Source of the DNA: an uncultured Pelagibacteraceae bacterium
Lineage (GTDB): Bacteria > Pseudomonadota > Alphaproteobacteria > Pelagibacterales > Pelagibacteraceae
NCBI GenBank assembly: GCA_902519445.1
Contig: CABYJR010000005.1
Coordinates: forward strand, 1 to 34,377
Reading direction: 5' to 3'
DNA length: 34,377 bases
The position numbers and the translations under genes were made by a program. The notes beneath the pieces were generated by a model. That model did no database searches and had not been told where the DNA came from. It was given only the letters and a program-made list of their open reading frames with translations. Shown in pieces: positions 1,716 through 9,982 of this stretch (position 1 is the first letter of the stretch; every line of letters begins with the position of its first letter).

Positions 1716-1858
1716 AAGTACAACTTAACATAGAATATCATAAATCTTATAAACAAAAATAGCCTGAAAGTTGTATTTTATTTTTTATTATCGTTGTGAC
1801 TTCTTTAATAAGGTTTATTAAGATCGACTTATTAATAATTTTATGGAGGAAAATATTT

Positions 1859-3145
1859 ATGATGGATAAATATTTCGACTATAGAAAACACAAAACCGAT
1901 TTTAAAACAGAAGTAATAGCCGGAGTTTCAACTTTCTTAACAATGGCTTACATTTTGTTTTTAAATCCTGTCATACTTGCAGATGGTGGTTTTGACTTTG
2001 GCGGTGTTTTCACAGCTACAGTTTTGGCGACAGCCATTGCTTGTTTCATAGCTGCATTTTACGCTAAGACATGGCCAGTAGGCTTGGCACCAGGAATGGG
2101 TATCAATGCTTTTATAGCTTATGGAGTTTGTTTGGGTATGAACTATACCCCAGCGGAAGCTCTTGGAGCTGTATTTGTCGCTGGTGTGGTCTTCTTAATA
2201 ATTTCACTAACTCCAGTAAGAGCTTGGCTAATCAACTCAATTCCAAAAAGTTTAAAACTTGGAATTGGTGCTGGAATAGGTTTGTTCTTAGCAATCATTG
2301 GTTTTGAAATTATGGGATTGACTGGTGACCATCCAGTTACACTTGTAACTCTTGGTGATCTTAGCAACCCATTACTTCTTTTAGGTGCTGGTGCATTTAT
2401 ATCAATGATCGTAATGGAAAAATATAAGATCAAAGGAAACATCATCATTGGAATCATTGCCTTTAGTATTATTGCTTGGGTATTTGGTTTAGCAAAATTT
2501 AATGGTGTTGCTTCTGCTCCACCTCCAATGACGCACTTGTTTGCATTTGATTTGGGTGCTGCACTTTCGGCTTCAATGGTAACAGTAGTCTTTACTCTGT
2601 TCTTCATTGACTTTTTTGATACTGCAGGAACTTTAACTAGCGTTGCAAATGTATCAGGGAAAATTGGAAAAGACGGAAAAATCCAAGATATCGACAAAGC
2701 TATGCTTTCAGACAGCGTATCAACTGTTGCGGGTTCGTTATTAGGAACAAGTACAGTTACTACATATGTAGAATCAGCTGCTGGAGTAAAAGCTGGCGGA
2801 AGAACGGGAATGACTTCTCTTGTAATAGGACTTTTATTCTTGGCTTGTATATTCTTAGCGCCGTTAGCAACAAGTCTTCCAAAAGAAATCGATGGAGCTG
2901 CATTAATTTATATTGCAACTCTTTTCGTTCGTAACATTGTAGATATTGAATGGGATGATATTGCTGAAGCAGGACCTGCTGTTCTGGCTATGATAGCAAT
3001 GCCATTCACTTATTCAATTTCTCATGGAATAGCTTTGGCATTTATTTCTTATGCAGCAATTAAAATCTGTACAGGAAAAACAAATGTTAGCCCCGCGATT
3101 TGGGTAATAGCAGCAGCGAGCGTAATAAGCTTCGTTGTAGCTTAA
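1859..3145 (+). CDS. NCS2-family purine permease, AzgA-type (guanine/hypoxanthine/xanthine)
   Basis: TDFKTEVIAGVSTFLTMAYILFLNPVIL, WPVGLAPGMGINAF, FFIDFFDTAGTL, SAAGVKAGGRTGMTS motifs of the AzgA subgroup. The listed start at 1796 is likely too long: ATG 1859 has GGAGGA at 1845-1850. Confidence 0.88.
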   Translation: MMDKYFDYRKHKTDFKTEVIAGVSTFLTMAYILFLNPVILADGGFDFGGVFTATVLATAIACFIAAFYAKTWPVGLAPGMGINAFIAYGVCLGMNYTPAEALGAVFVAGVVFLIISLTPVRAWLINSIPKSLKLGIGAGIGLFLAIIGFEIMGLTGDHPVTLVTLGDLSNPLLLLGAGAFISMIVMEKYKIKGNIIIGIIAFSIIAWVFGLAKFNGVASAPPPMTHLFAFDLGAALSASMVTVVFTLFFIDFFDTAGTLTSVANVSGKIGKDGKIQDIDKAMLSDSVSTVAGSLLGTSTVTTYVESAAGVKAGGRTGMTSLVIGLLFLACIFLAPLATSLPKEIDGAALIYIATLFVRNIVDIEWDDIAEAGPAVLAMIAMPFTYSISHGIALAFISYAAIKICTGKTNVSPAIWVIAAASVISFVVA

Positions 3146-3168: not shown

Positions 3169-3199
3169 AAAGGGGCCGGATTTATTCTGGCCCTTTTTT
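3169..3199 (+). terminator. Strong intrinsic terminator (possibly bidirectional) between the permease and the convergent phosphoribosyltransferase
   Basis: AAAGGGGCCGGA-tttat-TCTGGCCCTTTT: 12-bp stem with two G-U pairs, 5-nt loop, followed by T tract. Confidence 0.85.
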
Positions 3200-3722
3200 A
3201 TTTAGAGTGTTTCTTTTTTATATCTTCAATTCTTATTTCTTCGTAATGTTCAAAAGGTTGTACAATCCAAGGATTATCTGGCAATTTAACAGCACAATAA
3301 TCTGGTTCAAATGTTGATTTCTTTTTTTTCCATAAAGTGGCTGTCTTTATATCTTCAATTTTACCTTTAATTGTTTCATAATTCTTTAGCCAATCAACAC
3401 TTTTATTAAGAGTAATCCCAGTATCAGAAAGATCGTCACACAAAAGTATTTTGCCACCCATATTTTTTGCAATCGAACTCATTTCGCGAGAAAAGACTAT
3501 ATCTCCTTGTTCGTCTTCAACACCTTTGCCGCTATATGATTCTACCGCAAGGTAAGCACACTTTAGTTTAAAAACTCTGCTTAATAAATCTATCATAGGA
3601 GCACCTCCTCTCATTATACCAACTAGCAAGGTAGGTTTATAACCGCTATCGTGAACCATGATAGCTAACTTTTCTACAGTTTTGTTATATTCGTCCCAGG
3701 AAACAATTAATTTTTCTGACAT
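3198..3722 (-). CDS. Phosphoribosyltransferase, xanthine/guanine/hypoxanthine type
   Basis: PRPP-binding motif ILLCDDLSDTGITL; VGIMRGGAPMIDLLSR; adjacent to the purine permease. Exact base specificity not assignable. Confidence 0.75.
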   Translation of the reverse strand: MSEKLIVSWDEYNKTVEKLAIMVHDSGYKPTLLVGIMRGGAPMIDLLSRVFKLKCAYLAVESYSGKGVEDEQGDIVFSREMSSIAKNMGGKILLCDDLSDTGITLNKSVDWLKNYETIKGKIEDIKTATLWKKKKSTFEPDYCAVKLPDNPWIVQPFEHYEEIRIEDIKKKHSK

Positions 3723-3774
3723 ATTAATTCTGCTATCATAGTTAAAAAAAACTTAATTAAAAAGGAGAAAATTC

Positions 3775-4065
3775 ATGTCAAAAGGAATTTGGATAGCTGT
3801 ATATGAAAAAATAGAAAATATGGAAACTTTGAAAAAATATGCCACTAAAGCAACGGAAGCTATTGGTAAATATTCAGGTAAATTTCTAGTAAGAGGAGGA
3901 AAAAATATAACTCTTGAGGGAAATCAATCACCAAGAACAGTAATAGTTGAATTTCCATCTTTTGCAGATGCCGAAAAATGTTACAATTCTGACGAGTACC
4001 AAGAAGCTCATAATATATTAAAAGGCTCTGTAAAAAGAAATTTACAGATTATAGAAGGAGTTTAA
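3775..4065 (+). CDS. DUF1330 family protein
   Basis: 96 aa; GIWIAVYEKIENMETLKKYATKATEAIGKYSGKFLVRGG...RTVIVEFPSFADAEKCYNSDEYQEAHNIL is the DUF1330 (dimeric alpha/beta barrel) pattern; AAGGAGA ribosome-binding site upstream. Confidence 0.8.
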   Translation: MSKGIWIAVYEKIENMETLKKYATKATEAIGKYSGKFLVRGGKNITLEGNQSPRTVIVEFPSFADAEKCYNSDEYQEAHNILKGSVKRNLQIIEGV

Positions 4066-4904
4066 CTAGATTCTTTTTTATTTTTCCAGTTAACATAATA
4101 TTGAATTGTTCCAAAAATTATTGCCAATACAAAAAGAATTATCCAATTGTATTTACTATTCGAAATGAAGGATGCGTGTCCACTTAACATTATAAACAAA
4201 ACTAATAATGTAATAATATTGTTGTGAACTGATCTCACCTTTGCTCGAACTGAAAGATTTAAATCAATTTTTTCTTTTTTAGAAGCGGCTAACGCTATTT
4301 TTCTACCGTTTGGTGCTATTACAAAGAATACATTCATGGTCATTATACTTCCTAAAATAATACCTGATTGTAAAAAAGCAAATCGTTGGCCGTAGATTTT
4401 AGTTAAACCAAGTGAAATAGCTGTTCCAATAATTAAAAGTACAGCTGGAAAAATAATTTTGGAGTTTATTAATTTAGACTTACAAATAAAATCGTAAAGT
4501 AACCACGACCCTATTATAGATAATATTGAAATTGCTATAGCGATTGAAGGAGAAATATTTTCATTTACTCTTTTATCAACCATTAAAATATCTGCATTTA
4601 CAAAATAAATTAATATCAATAACGCTATACCTGATAAAAAAGTCAAATAGGAAGTGTACTTCCAAAGAATTACATTCTTTGGAACTTCCTGCGGTGCACC
4701 ATAATATCTGGTTAATTTATAATAATAACCGCTGTGTTGTAAAATTCCTTCAGCTTCAGCATCTTCTGCTTTTGAACTTTTTGGTAATTTGTTATCTAAA
4801 TAATTAAAAGTAAAAGATGTACCCACCCATAGTATGGCAAAAAAAACATGTCCCCATCTAAGTAAAGCTTGAGTCCATTTGGTAATATCAGGTAGGAATT
4901 CCAT
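4062..4904 (-). CDS. puuD: PuuD-type membrane-bound urate oxidase (urate hydroxylase), membrane domain only, no cytochrome c domain
   Basis: RWGHVFFAILWVGTSFTFNYLDN, YYGAPQEVPKNVILWKYTSYLTFLSGIALLIL, GSWLLYDFICKS, MNVFFVIAPNGRKI, RAKVRSVHNNIITLLVLFIMLSGH match the PuuD membrane domain. The ORF ends shortly after the last TM (NWKNKKESS) with no CxxCH. Linked to xdh/hiuH/uraD. Confidence 0.85.
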   Translation of the reverse strand: MEFLPDITKWTQALLRWGHVFFAILWVGTSFTFNYLDNKLPKSSKAEDAEAEGILQHSGYYYKLTRYYGAPQEVPKNVILWKYTSYLTFLSGIALLILIYFVNADILMVDKRVNENISPSIAIAISILSIIGSWLLYDFICKSKLINSKIIFPAVLLIIGTAISLGLTKIYGQRFAFLQSGIILGSIMTMNVFFVIAPNGRKIALAASKKEKIDLNLSVRAKVRSVHNNIITLLVLFIMLSGHASFISNSKYNWIILFVLAIIFGTIQYYVNWKNKKESS

Positions 4905-5369
4905 TTAATATTTAACCTTATCTGTTTTTTTATCCCACATTTCAAAAGCTTTTAAAGCTTCATTTCTCATCATTTGAATCATAGGAATTTTTCTTTTATC
5001 AATGTTTTTTTGTAATTCTGTATAAATTAATGAATCATCAAAATCAATTTTTCGAGCATCTTCTCTGGTGTTCGCATAATATATTTTATCAATCCTTGCC
5101 CAGTAAATTGCAGATAAACACATGGGACACGGTTCACATGTTGAATATAATTCGCAACCGTTAAGACTAAAATTATTTAATTTTTTACATGCCTCACGAA
5201 TAGCAACTATTTCGCCATGTGCAGTAGGATCGTTATTTGATGTAACTTTATTTGAACCTTCTGCTATAATTTTATCACCTTTAACAATAACACTTCCAAA
5301 AGGCCCTCCGCCATTATTTACACTTTTAATTGAAAGCTCTATGGCTTTTTTCATAAATTCATTTTTCAT
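4905..5369 (-). CDS. guaD: Guanine deaminase (cytidine/deoxycytidylate deaminase fold)
   Basis: Zn motifs AHGEIVAIREA and STCEPCPMCLSAIYWARIDKIYYA; FDDSLIYTEL...F.MWDKKTDKVKY C-terminus as in B. subtilis-type GuaD; coupled to xdhB. Confidence 0.83.
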   Translation of the reverse strand: MKNEFMKKAIELSIKSVNNGGGPFGSVIVKGDKIIAEGSNKVTSNNDPTAHGEIVAIREACKKLNNFSLNGCELYSTCEPCPMCLSAIYWARIDKIYYANTREDARKIDFDDSLIYTELQKNIDKRKIPMIQMMRNEALKAFEMWDKKTDKVKY

Positions 5370-7666
5370 AATTTAGCTTTCAAATTGTTTATACTCATAA
5401 GTATTTTTTCAGGTGTTGCAGGTGCATTAATAATTGGTGTTATATCGTAATTTCCTACAGAAGAAATAGCATCCTTAATAGCAAAAAAAACACTCATTGC
5501 ATTCATAAGCGGCGGTTCGCCTGTAGTCTTGGATTTGTTCACAACATTTTCCTTGTTTTTTCCTTCTTTAAAAATTTCTACAATAAAATTTTCTGGCATA
5601 TCATTAACCGCAGGAATTTTATAAGTAGAAGGTGAATGAGTTGTGATTTGACCATTTGTTTTCCATTTTACCTCTTCCATGGTTAACCAACCTGCACCCT
5701 GCAAAAATCCACCTTCAATTTGTCCAAGTTCTATAGCTGGATTGATAGCTCTTCCTGCGTCATGCAATATATCAACTCTTAAAATTTTATTTTCTCCAGT
5801 TAAAGTATCAATTATTACCTCAGAAACTGCTGCGCCATAACAGAAATATAAAAATGGTCTGCCATGAAATTTTTTTGGGTTGAAGCGTATTTTTGGAGTT
5901 GTATAAAAACCTGAAGAAGATAATGAAACTCTATTTAAATAAGCTTCTTTAATTAATTTATTAAATTTAAATGATTTTCCTTTAAACTTAACTAATCCGT
6001 TTTCATAAATAGCTTCTTCATTTTTAATTTTATATTTACGTTTTACAAATAAAAAAAGATTTCTTTTTATTTTCGCAATAGCATCAAGCATAGCAGCTCC
6101 ATTAAGATCAGTGGTTGAGCTTGCTGCTGAGGCCGATGTGTTTGGAACTTTATCAGTCCTAGTCGCTGAAACTTTAATTTTGTTAAGTGGCAAACCTAAT
6201 TCTGCTGCAGCTAGTTGCGCAATTTTAGTATATGTGCCTTGGCCCATTTCAATAGCACCTGTATTAATATGGCAGCTTCCATCATTACAGTAAATATGAA
6301 CTAATGCTCCCGCTTGATTGAGGTGCATGGTTGTAAAGCTTATTCCAAATTTAACTGGAGTTATTGCTATTCCTTTTTTTATATATTTATTTATTGAATT
6401 AAATTTTTTTATTTCTGATCTACGTACTTTATAATTTGAAGATTTTATCAATTTGTCAAAAATTACTTGGATCACGTTATCTTCTATTTTCATACCGTAG
6501 TGCGTGATATTTTTCTTATAATTTTGGTAAAAATTTCTTCGTCTTATTTCTGCAGGGTCTTTTTTTAGTGATTGCGCAATATTATCAATAATATTTTCTA
6601 TAACCATCATTCCTTGATTTCCTCCAAAACCACGAAATGCTGTATTTGAAGCAGTATTTGTTTTACATAAATAATTTTCTGCTAATATATTTTCTATATA
6701 ATAAGCGTTATCAAGATGCAAAAGAGCTCTCTGATTTATAGCTCCAGATAGATCTGGAGAGATTCCACATTTAGAAGCCAGTTTGATTTTTAATCCTTGG
6801 ATAACTCCTAGTTCGTCAAAACCTACTTCATATTCAGAATTAAAATCATGTCTTTTTCCTGTAATAATTATTTCATCATCTCTATCTACTCTAAGCTTTA
6901 CCGGGCGTTTAGTTTTTTTAGATAACAAGGTACAAATGGCTGCAAATATAAAAGACTGTGTTTCTTTTCCACCAAAACCGCCGCCGATTCTTCTTACTTC
7001 AACTGTAATAGTATTGCTTTTTTGGTTAAGCATTTTTGCTATTATTTGTTGAGTCTCGCTTGGATGTTGAGTTGAAGAATAAACTTTATAATCATTATCT
7101 TCCTCTGGAATCGTAAACGCCACATGACCTTCAAGTGCGAAATGTTCTTGACTACCGGTAGTAAAATTTCCTTTTAATTTATATGGAGCTTGATTAATTT
7201 TATTAATAGGCTCTCCTTTTTTAATTTTATTCTCTTTTAAAACAAATAATTTTTTTTTTAATGCTTCTTGAATGCTGTTAGTTACTTTCAATGACTTATA
7301 AGAAATTTTAGCCTTCAAAACTGCTTTTCTGGCAAGTTCCGTTGTTGTTGCCGCCACTGCAAATAGTGGTTGACCAAAATACTCGACCTTTTTAGGAAAT
7401 ATAGGATCACCATCATATACGGGCCCAACGTCATTTCGGCCGGGTATATCTTTTGATGTTATTACAGAAACTACCCCTTCACTTTTTTTAACTTCTTCAA
7501 GGTTCATTTTTTTAATTATAGCGTGAGCTCTTTTACTCCATCCAATTGCCCCATATAAAGTGTTGGGCACTTCAGGAATATCATCCGTATAATGAGCTTG
7601 ACCAGTTACATGTTTTATACCACTTTCATGAGGCCTTTCTTCGTTTATAAAAATTTCTTTATTCAT
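5366..7666 (-). CDS. xdhB: Xanthine dehydrogenase, molybdenum-binding subunit
   Basis: 766 aa; RIGGGFGGKETQ, NTAFRGFGGNQGMM, GAIEMGQGTYTKIAQLAA, TTGEPPLMNAMSVFFAIKDAI (conserved catalytic Glu context) as in XDH. Confidence 0.93.
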   Translation of the reverse strand: MNKEIFINEERPHESGIKHVTGQAHYTDDIPEVPNTLYGAIGWSKRAHAIIKKMNLEEVKKSEGVVSVITSKDIPGRNDVGPVYDGDPIFPKKVEYFGQPLFAVAATTTELARKAVLKAKISYKSLKVTNSIQEALKKKLFVLKENKIKKGEPINKINQAPYKLKGNFTTGSQEHFALEGHVAFTIPEEDNDYKVYSSTQHPSETQQIIAKMLNQKSNTITVEVRRIGGGFGGKETQSFIFAAICTLLSKKTKRPVKLRVDRDDEIIITGKRHDFNSEYEVGFDELGVIQGLKIKLASKCGISPDLSGAINQRALLHLDNAYYIENILAENYLCKTNTASNTAFRGFGGNQGMMVIENIIDNIAQSLKKDPAEIRRRNFYQNYKKNITHYGMKIEDNVIQVIFDKLIKSSNYKVRRSEIKKFNSINKYIKKGIAITPVKFGISFTTMHLNQAGALVHIYCNDGSCHINTGAIEMGQGTYTKIAQLAAAELGLPLNKIKVSATRTDKVPNTSASAASSTTDLNGAAMLDAIAKIKRNLFLFVKRKYKIKNEEAIYENGLVKFKGKSFKFNKLIKEAYLNRVSLSSSGFYTTPKIRFNPKKFHGRPFLYFCYGAAVSEVIIDTLTGENKILRVDILHDAGRAINPAIELGQIEGGFLQGAGWLTMEEVKWKTNGQITTHSPSTYKIPAVNDMPENFIVEIFKEGKNKENVVNKSKTTGEPPLMNAMSVFFAIKDAISSVGNYDITPIINAPATPEKILMSINNLKAKL

Positions 7667-9106
7667 TTAACTATATATTCCAATTATTTTTTTTTCATTT
7701 ATTTCTAAAAAACATTTTTCTAGAAGATTTTTTGCAATTATTTTTCGATACTTCCCGCTTGCTCTCATGTCGCTGATTGGAAGAAAATCTTTTTCTAAAG
7801 CATTTTTTGCTTTATTAATTACGTCTTTTGTAATTGAAGAATTTAAAAGGACTCTTTCGCAAGAAAGAGCTCGCTTAGGGATTTCGGCCATACCGCCATA
7901 TGCAATTTTTATCTTTTTAATTTTTTTGTTTTCAATTAATAAATTAAAAGCAGCACAGACTGAAGATATGTCATCATCAAAACGTTTAGATATTTTATAA
8001 GCTTTAAAAATATTTTTATCAAAAATAGGGATTCTAATAGAGTGAATGAATTGTCCTTCTTTTAACTTGGTTTTACGATAGTTAATAAAAAAATTGTTAA
8101 TTGGTAAAATTTTACTCTTTTTAATACCTTGTAATACTACCTGAGAATCTAAAGCTAACAATAATGGAAGATTATCACCTATTGGCGATGCGGTCGCTAT
8201 ATTTCCTGCTATAGTTGCTACATTTCTTATTTGTACCGATCCATAGCGTTTAAGAATTTTATTAAAATCTGGATAGAACTTTTTTATATATGTTTCAAAA
8301 CTGCTTAATGAAGTTGTAGCACCTACTTCAATATATTTATTATTATTTTTAATATAATTTAATTCCTCTATTGAATTCATATAAACAATAGACTCGATAT
8401 CTTTTCTATCTTTAGTTACAGCCAAAGATAAATCTGTGCCACCGCTAAGTAACTTTGAGTTAGAATTTTTTTTAAGAATTTTTTTAAGTTCCGAAACATA
8501 ACGTGGCGCAAAATATTTTTTATCTTTTTTGTAAATAGAAATACTTTTGTTTCCTATTTTTTTTAACAGAGCGATGGTATGCTTTTTATTTTTTACAAAA
8601 TGATCAATTTTATTTTTTGTACGTAAACTTTTTGCTGCTTTAATTATAGGTTTATATCCTGTGCAACGACACAAATTTCCTGCTATAGAATCCTTAATTA
8701 TTTCTTCTTTTAATTGTGAGTAATTTTTAAACATTGAAAATAAAGACATAACAAAACCTGGTGTGCAGAAACCACATTGCGAGCCATGACACTTAACCAT
8801 AGCTTCTTGAACAGGGTGCAATGAATTATCTTTTGAAATTAAATCTTCTACTAGTATAAGTTGTTTTCCAGTTAGAGTAGGTAAAAAAGTAATGCATGAA
8901 TTAACAGCTGTATAATTAATATTATTATCTTTTAATTCTCCCAAAACAACTGTGCAAGCTCCACAGCCTCCCTCAGCGCAACCTTCTTTTGTGCCAGTTT
9001 TTTTTAATTTATTTCTAACAAAATTAAGCAATGTTTCATTAGGATCAGGATTCCGAATTTCAACAACCTTTTCAGAATGAATAAACCTAATTGTGTTTGA
9101 AGACAC
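7667..9106 (-). CDS. xdhA: Xanthine dehydrogenase, small subunit (two [2Fe-2S] plus FAD domains)
   Basis: GTKEGCAEGGCGACTVVLGE, QCGFCTPGFVMSLFSMF, GNLCRCTGYKPI; FAD domain LLSGGTDLSLAVTKDRKD and TIAGNIATASPIGDNLPLLLAL. Confidence 0.93.
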   Translation of the reverse strand: MSSNTIRFIHSEKVVEIRNPDPNETLLNFVRNKLKKTGTKEGCAEGGCGACTVVLGELKDNNINYTAVNSCITFLPTLTGKQLILVEDLISKDNSLHPVQEAMVKCHGSQCGFCTPGFVMSLFSMFKNYSQLKEEIIKDSIAGNLCRCTGYKPIIKAAKSLRTKNKIDHFVKNKKHTIALLKKIGNKSISIYKKDKKYFAPRYVSELKKILKKNSNSKLLSGGTDLSLAVTKDRKDIESIVYMNSIEELNYIKNNNKYIEVGATTSLSSFETYIKKFYPDFNKILKRYGSVQIRNVATIAGNIATASPIGDNLPLLLALDSQVVLQGIKKSKILPINNFFINYRKTKLKEGQFIHSIRIPIFDKNIFKAYKISKRFDDDISSVCAAFNLLIENKKIKKIKIAYGGMAEIPKRALSCERVLLNSSITKDVINKAKNALEKDFLPISDMRASGKYRKIIAKNLLEKCFLEINEKKIIGIYS

Positions 9107-9453
9107 TAGCTACCTCTATAAGTAGAATAACTCCAAGGACTAACAAGTAAAGGTACATGGTAATGTTCTTTGGGATTAGAAACTCCAAACCTTATTATCA
9201 CTTCATTTAAAAAAGGTATTTTGGGTAAATTAGGTATATTTTTAAAATAATCCCCTACAAAAAAAACAAGTTCATACTCTCCTTCTTTAAAATTGCTTCC
9301 TTCAAGCAAAGCTTTGTCTGACCGTCCGTTATTATTCAGTATTGTTGAATTAATTTTTTCCTTTTTGCCAGAAACTGTATAAATATCTACTTTAATACCT
9401 TTTGCAGGCTTGCCGGAAAAAGTGTCTAGGCAATGTGTGGTTAATTTTGTCAT
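9106..9453 (-). CDS. hiuH: 5-hydroxyisourate hydrolase (transthyretin-like)
   Basis: LTTHCLDTFSGKPAKGIKVDIY ... YHVPLLVSPWSYSTYRGS; terminal YRGS is the HIUase signature. Confidence 0.93.
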   Translation of the reverse strand: MTKLTTHCLDTFSGKPAKGIKVDIYTVSGKKEKINSTILNNNGRSDKALLEGSNFKEGEYELVFFVGDYFKNIPNLPKIPFLNEVIIRFGVSNPKEHYHVPLLVSPWSYSTYRGS

Positions 9454-9478
9454 AAGATATTATATAAACTAAATAAAT

Positions 9479-9982
9479 ATGATCAATAAAATTAATAAAT
9501 TATCTAAAAGTGAGTTTGCTAAAGTTTTTGCCAATATTTTCGAAAATGCAAGTTGGATTGCCAATAAACTATACGATCTGAAACCATTTACCAGCTTTGA
9601 AGAGTTATCTTCAAAAATGATTAATATTTTTGAATCTTGTCCAAAAGAGAAAAAATTGGAAATTCTTAATGCTCATCCTGACTTAGCAGACAAAACAAAA
9701 ATTTCATCACTAACACCCGATTCTAAAAAAGAGCAAAATAGTGCAGGTCTCGATCAATGTACAGAAGATGAATTTAATGAATTTAAAAAACTTAATGATA
9801 CTTATAAAAAATTTGGATTTCCTTTTATACTTGCAGTAAAAGGAAAAAATAAAAATGAAATTTTAAATAACTTTAGAAAAAGAATTTCATCTGAACCTGA
9901 AATAGAATTTAACGAAGCTATAAAGCAGGTAAAAAAAATTGCTAGTTTACGTTTAAAAGATTTAAATAAAAATGGTATTTAA
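9479..9982 (+). CDS. uraD: 2-oxo-4-hydroxy-4-carboxy-5-ureidoimidazoline (OHCU) decarboxylase
   Basis: LNAHPDLADK (HPDLA) motif, NSAGLDQCTEDEFNEFKKLNDTYKKFGFPFILAVKGKN, typical UraD. Confidence 0.92.
   Translation: MINKINKLSKSEFAKVFANIFENASWIANKLYDLKPFTSFEELSSKMINIFESCPKEKKLEILNAHPDLADKTKISSLTPDSKKEQNSAGLDQCTEDEFNEFKKLNDTYKKFGFPFILAVKGKNKNEILNNFRKRISSEPEIEFNEAIKQVKKIASLRLKDLNKNGI

Follow-up and report, generated by a model that had tools for sequence, protein, structure and literature searches.

The cytochrome c urate oxidase PuuD, as described by Doniselli et al. in 2015, has eight transmembrane helices and a periplasmic C-terminus and carries a C-terminal cytochrome c domain with an invariant CxxCH and a distal Met; according to the same paper, full-length DUF989 proteins all carry this cytochrome (PMC4562309). 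The invariance of the fused cytochrome was taken at that time as a sign that it is essential, and the acceptor of PuuD electrons has been open since. A 34,377-base stretch of DNA from a SAR11 bacterium (the window) encodes a puuD-like protein in which the cytochrome domain is missing, and the question that this locus raises is how such a domain came to be absent and where the electrons of urate would go. The comparisons described below support a single loss of the fused cytochrome in the SAR11 lineage, and the presence of a small cytochrome gene in related purine clusters suggests that the fused carrier has been replaced by a free one.

A stand-alone membrane domain

The puuD-like gene (4062..4904, minus strand) begins with ATG and encodes a 280-aa, stand-alone Urate_ox_N membrane protein with seven predicted long helices and no cytochrome c domain, the C-terminus reading ...NWKNKKESS. 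In a Pfam scan PF06181 (Urate_ox_N) was the sole match (E = 4.4e-74), extending over residues 7-278 and profile positions 3-274 of 295, and with 250 bits against a gathering score of 26.9 the protein is a full-length member of this family. The motifs RSVHNN (224-229) and LSGH (240-243) are both present. The preliminary description of the locus had recognized a PuuD membrane domain that ends without CxxCH, and this holds; its wording of a "full" membrane domain is slightly generous, as nearly the whole PF06181 profile is covered but helix 8 of fused PuuD is missing. The predicted structure (mean pLDDT 73.6) has seven long helices, whereas the model of a fused control (L058) has eight helices followed by the cytochrome. 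The Pelagibacter-type SAR11 proteins (a second SAR11 genus, with PF06181 frames of 301-306 aa) retain a strong eighth hydrophobic segment at 283-301, and there is a series of architectures from fused, through unfused with helix 8, to unfused without helix 8. Under the published N-out topology, the C-terminus of the window protein would be cytosolic, with which its KNKK tail agrees. Because a Foldseek search of both models against the PDB gave no match below E = 1 and a profile search of PDB sequences gave no genuine match, no cofactor was deduced from the fold; on a model of middling confidence, H19/H227 came into view as a possible site for heme b.

The Pfam search that had been proposed for this protein recovered PF06181, but its silence on the cytochrome is a weak negative, since in the genuine PuuDs tested the Pfam cytochrome c models overlook the heme domain; for that reason, the absence of the heme domain was judged by CxxCH and by a purpose-built alignment. 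The motif CxxCH occurs neither in the protein, which ends at residue 280, nor in any stop-to-stop frame of at least 40 aa on either strand of the whole window. No heme domain is therefore hidden by a nearby frameshift, and the earlier observation that the window holds no separate cytochrome c gene is confirmed. The position of the stop is kept among relatives, with 280-aa frames in several genomes of the same genus, which together with the lack of CxxCH in the window speaks strongly against the frameshift or assembly error that had been named as a possible source of the truncation.

The purine cluster

Upstream of puuD, on the same strand, are a gene for a tadA-like purine deaminase (4905..5369, minus), which is the gene directly before puuD among SAR11 relatives as well and likewise at L097, the fused sister locus described below, xdhB for the molybdopterin subunit of xanthine dehydrogenase (5366..7666, minus; TIGR02965), xdhA for its small subunit (7667..9106, minus; TIGR02963) and hiuH for 5-hydroxyisourate hydrolase (9106..9453, minus; TIGR02962), followed, on the opposite strand, by uraD for OHCU decarboxylase (9479..9982, plus; TIGR03164). 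All of these exceed the curated cut-offs with the exception of the tadA-like gene. On the other side, a DUF1330 gene (3775..4065, plus) is convergent with puuD and, ending at 4065, produces the 4-base overlap reported earlier; beyond it are a purine phosphoribosyltransferase-type gene (3198..3722, minus), which adjoins puuD or lies one gene off throughout SAR11, and an NCS2 xanthine/uracil-type permease gene (1796..3145, plus). The xanthine-to-allantoin route around puuD is complete in the window. An accessory xdhC gene, which in L097 lies between xdhB and tadA, is absent from that place in the window (3198-9982).

Uox (PF01014) is absent from the 29 genomes searched, including that of the window (64% complete), and no HpxO scored above its cut-off in 23 genomes; the puuD-like protein of the window is therefore the best candidate for the urate step.

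Distribution and direction of change

In the family to which the window belongs, full-length PF06181 frames, those at contig ends aside, come in two lengths: about 280 aa in the window's genus and in genera close to it, and 301-306 aa in the Pelagibacter-type. The proposed survey of SAR11 homologs for domain loss gave a uniform result: CxxCH is missing in 56 of 56 SAR11 loci (some genomes were reached by two routes, and the loci are not 56 independent genomes) and present in all 98 complete non-SAR11 PuuDs inspected. Open frames outside SAR11 are at least 395 aa long in 89 of 91 class matches and in 117 of 118 phylum matches, and the three short-frame exceptions comprise two frames at a contig end and one genuine case, G423. 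The cytochrome-less form is lineage-specific and not an artefact.

The G423 protein (L216:1771-2682), which was read separately from the set of 98, is an independent stand-alone PuuD of a non-SAR11 alphaproteobacterium; it has 303 aa and no cytochrome, adjoins hiuH and carries N at the position equivalent to H243 (SKNYG). PuuD is fused in G525, a member of the same family. In another genome, G527, a divergent PuuD-like membrane domain (L217:1379-3850; E 5.8e-34) carries a fused CxxCH and is encoded next to an aminotransferase-like gene; no purine gene was recognized in the 7 kb fetched, and this protein possibly has a different substrate. Short four-helix DUF989 proteins (~200 aa) were matched in most SAR11 genomes of the family. 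They resemble the window protein in matching PF06181, albeit partially, and in having no cytochrome, but differ from it in lacking the histidine of RSxHNN and in being encoded, in two loci read, beside uvrA and secF, outside the purine cluster. Two such proteins (L218:1851-2450 and L220:2176-2778) have kept the helix I histidine and not H227.

A maximum-likelihood tree built from 117 rows of membrane domains unites the stand-alone SAR11 forms in a single clade (support 100/100) on a long stem branch of 1.22 changes per column, and the sister of this clade (support 100/98) is L097 from assembly AG-464-G03, a fused PuuD of 405 aa with CGVCH. L097 is AT-rich like SAR11, and the shared composition could favour their grouping. 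Among 59 non-SAR11 loci, L097 is also the only one with tadA directly upstream of puuD after hiuH-xdhA-xdhB. Since this sister is fused and has the gene order tadA-puuD uniquely in common with SAR11, we conclude that the domain was lost in SAR11; furthermore, fused forms are so widespread, with Bacteroidota, Myxococcota and members of several proteobacterial classes among their hosts, that a loss on the way to SAR11 is a more parsimonious account than repeated gains elsewhere. A lineage-wide loss of the fused cytochrome in SAR11, with a single origin, is well supported.

Selection and residue conservation

Purifying selection on SAR11 puuD continues, with pairwise dN/dS ranging from 0.05 to 0.23 within the window's group and from 0.03 to 0.21 among Pelagibacter-type sequences. 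Fused proteins have 60 membrane positions with a conservation of at least 95%; 39 of these are also kept in at least 95% of the SAR11 sequences, and the near-invariant residues retained include H19, H57, R224, H227, N228 and H243. Fourteen of the 60 are replaced in most SAR11 proteins; among the fourteen, W54, G60, K66, W80, E84, W89 and P234, invariant in fused PuuDs, differ in almost every SAR11 protein and are intact in L097. As the replaced residues are mostly on the cytosolic loop I-II and on helix II, the SAR11 protein may have changed at the substrate side or active site. A single stand-alone SAR11 PuuD (L028:1510-2352, genome G042), which sits on a long branch, reads RSIMNN for RSxHNN, with methionine at H227, and decay or functional change of this protein is possible.

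A SorU-like cytochrome in sister SAR11 clusters

A cytochrome c family search of SAR11 genomes returned, in many of them, a small match about 8 kb from puuD. This cluster cytochrome, apparently a secreted protein, has 102-124 aa, an N-terminal signal-like stretch and one CxxCH, and its best family is NCBIfam SorU (85.8 bits for L081 against a cut-off of 100). The SorU-like gene is present in 14 of the 17 Pelagibacter-type clusters with enough upstream sequence, the exceptions being L079, L092 and L096, whereas it was found near puuD in none of 59 fused non-SAR11 loci (a few of which have short flanks). It is on the strand of hiuH-xdhA-xdhB-tadA-puuD, upstream of hiuH-xdh-puuD, and is not in one operon with puuD, from which it is 5-8 kb upstream. 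Of the 99 listed genomes of the Pelagibacter-type genus, 19 have puuD and 80 do not; cluster-type copies are encoded by 15 of the former and none of the latter (Fisher p = 1.8e-14, ignoring shared ancestry), and any SorU-like gene by 18 and 7, respectively (p = 3.3e-13, likewise ignoring shared ancestry); the sole puuD-positive genome without one, G267, has a contig broken at puuD. The gene is under purifying selection (dN/dS 0.12-0.17), and a tree of small cytochromes (86 columns) is poorly resolved as to a single origin of the cluster copies. The SorU-like gene persists in clusters from which the allantoin genes puuE, allA and alc are absent (L084, L086, L087, L095), and it is absent from the L092 cluster, where those three genes are present; the pattern points to a role of the cytochrome at the urate step or before. 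SorT is absent from the purine cluster of the sister genomes, and a paralogous SorU-like type elsewhere in SAR11 adjoins a gene for a SorT-type sulfite dehydrogenase. DUF1330 genes, which recur beside puuD in the window's genus (3775-4065 in the window), also adjoin the SorU-like cytochrome gene in Pelagibacter-type clusters (L081:1864-2151, L158:1079-1366).

The preliminary description had envisaged a split version of the enzyme, which taken literally is not supported. A heme-domain profile built from 20 PuuD cytochrome domains, with their MPxxN, ER and W signatures, matched nothing in 23 SAR11 genomes but did recover the control, the genome of L097, at 3.2e-32; no SorU-like gene was found in the L097 genome. 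An hhalign comparison of the SorU-like and PuuD heme profiles gave a probability of 37% (8-row alignment A4, in which row L061 is out of frame), and the two profiles are similar only remotely. On these grounds, a PuuD heme domain that was split off and kept elsewhere is rejected: the SorU-like cytochrome is a recruited family, a replacement rather than a product of splitting.

Cytochromes in the window's own genus

No cluster cytochrome was found in the window's genus among the loci read (the window, L076, L077), and the stand-alone c-type cytochrome suggested earlier is supported by the purine clusters of sister SAR11 genomes. A single strong SorU-like gene, for a protein of 105 aa, is present in the genome of the window (contig C3:44437-44748; 92.8 bits against the SorU cut-off of 100). 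Its neighbours, a TauE-type exporter gene, a SuyB-like gene and aprBA, suggest a sulfite role for this cytochrome. The corresponding region (L176, G000 contig C3:38000-48568), in which aprB-aprA, the TauE exporter, the SorU-like cytochrome and SuyAB-like genes occur together, is likely a sulfonate/sulfite module. A PuuD-specific function of this cytochrome is not supported, given the TauE/AprBA context and the occurrence of SorU-like genes also in SAR11 genera without puuD. The most likely acceptor for the window protein would be a shared periplasmic cytochrome c, with quinone or O2 being possible.

Proposed mechanism and alternative explanations

On balance, we lean towards a PuuD-type membrane half that lost its fusion and gives electrons to a separate, diffusible c-type cytochrome of the periplasm. 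The window gene product would correspond to the membrane half, the catalytic one, of a urate oxidase of the PuuD type, which remained in use after the ancestor of the SAR11 purine degraders had lost the C-terminal cytochrome c domain. Urate would be converted to 5-hydroxyisourate at the cytosolic side, HiuH and UraD of the cluster would finish the route to allantoin, and the electrons would travel through the free cytochrome to a terminal oxidase. The probable carrier in Pelagibacter-type SAR11 is the SorU-like cytochrome of the purine cluster; for the window's genus, a respiratory cytochrome c from another part of the genome, SorU-like or not, would take that place. That the protein is active, how it is oriented in the membrane and that it passes electrons to the SorU-like cytochrome are what we infer from these comparisons, and a literature search found no assay of a SAR11 PuuD.

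The lack of a linked cytochrome in the window's genus and in three Pelagibacter-type clusters would also be compatible with a membrane domain that is in itself a complete urate oxidase, passing electrons to quinone or O2, in which case the fused cytochrome would be dispensable and the SorU-like gene of the cluster incidental or needed for another step. The window protein has, moreover, lost helix 8, which would position a tethered periplasmic domain, and the residue changes in SAR11 gather on the cytosolic loop I-II and helix II, not on the periplasmic face. We regard this explanation as possible but doubtful in view of the strict tie of the cluster-type cytochrome to puuD (15/19 versus 0/80), the presence of a SorU-like protein somewhere in 18/19 puuD-positive genomes of the Pelagibacter-type genus, and the impaired purine use of mutants in ccmC, a cytochrome c maturation gene, of a PuuD-encoding rhizobium (PMC4562309). 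A route free of cytochrome c in the window's genus in particular, on which the bare membrane protein oxidises urate and feeds the quinone pool (or O2) directly, seems to us unlikely; if it does exist, the catalytic core of PuuD would not include the cytochrome, which would then be an accessory.

Another explanation, that the SAR11 protein has ceased to oxidise urate and has drifted to a different role such as urate binding or transport, leaving the oxidation to another enzyme such as an FAD monooxygenase, would account for the long stem branch and for the loss of several residues that are invariant in fused PuuDs, and FAD monooxygenases distantly like HpxO are indeed encoded in these genomes (~96 bits against a cut-off of 500). 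None of them is within the cluster, however, and the four conserved histidines and the RSxHNN motif are retained, selection is purifying and the gene has a constant position beside xdhB-tadA in a urate-to-allantoin cluster, which makes such a drift quite improbable. Concealment of a cytochrome domain by frameshift, misassembly or pseudogene decay is hardly credible, being contradicted by the lack of CxxCH in any frame of the window, the concordance of 56 loci from many assemblies, and the absence of a PuuD-type heme domain from 23 SAR11 genomes when the same profile detects that of the control.

In SAR11, among the most abundant bacteria of the ocean, the fusion is not needed for the gene to stay under selection, and the finding bears on the coupling of purine use to respiration in these organisms. 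The variants found in nature (fused, unfused with a free cytochrome gene in the cluster, and unfused with none nearby) open the role of the cytochrome to direct testing.

Comparison with known systems

The window protein is a Urate_ox_N member and in all likelihood functions like PuuD. It shares with the PuuD of Doniselli et al. the Urate_ox_N/DUF989 domain, the conserved histidines, the HNN motif and, in genomes that lack Uox, a gene cluster with hiuH, uraD and xdh, but differs in having no C-terminal cytochrome c and, in the window's genus, no helix 8; because the defining fusion is missing, it is not a cytochrome c urate oxidase in the sense of 2015. Braakman et al. (2025) had already given the SAR11 gene the name PuuD, in a main text that mentions no cytochrome (PMC11698098). 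The gene they describe is this one, in a SAR11 purine cluster of the same type, and its presence and name are already published; what the present analysis adds is that the cytochrome domain was lost and that a SorU-like gene accompanies puuD in most Pelagibacter-type clusters. Full purine catabolism is reported for the isolate HIMB083 (PMC11698098). The SorT sulfite dehydrogenase has SorU as its cognate electron acceptor (PMC4760952), and this pair offers a precedent for transfer from an enzyme to a free cytochrome. The cluster cytochrome best matches NCBIfam SorU, and transfer from an oxidoreductase to a free, small c-type cytochrome is here a proposal. The SAR11 case differs in that the cluster and own-genome proteins score 86-93 bits against the curated cut-off of 100, no SorT is encoded in the purine cluster, and the partner proposed is a membrane urate oxidase.
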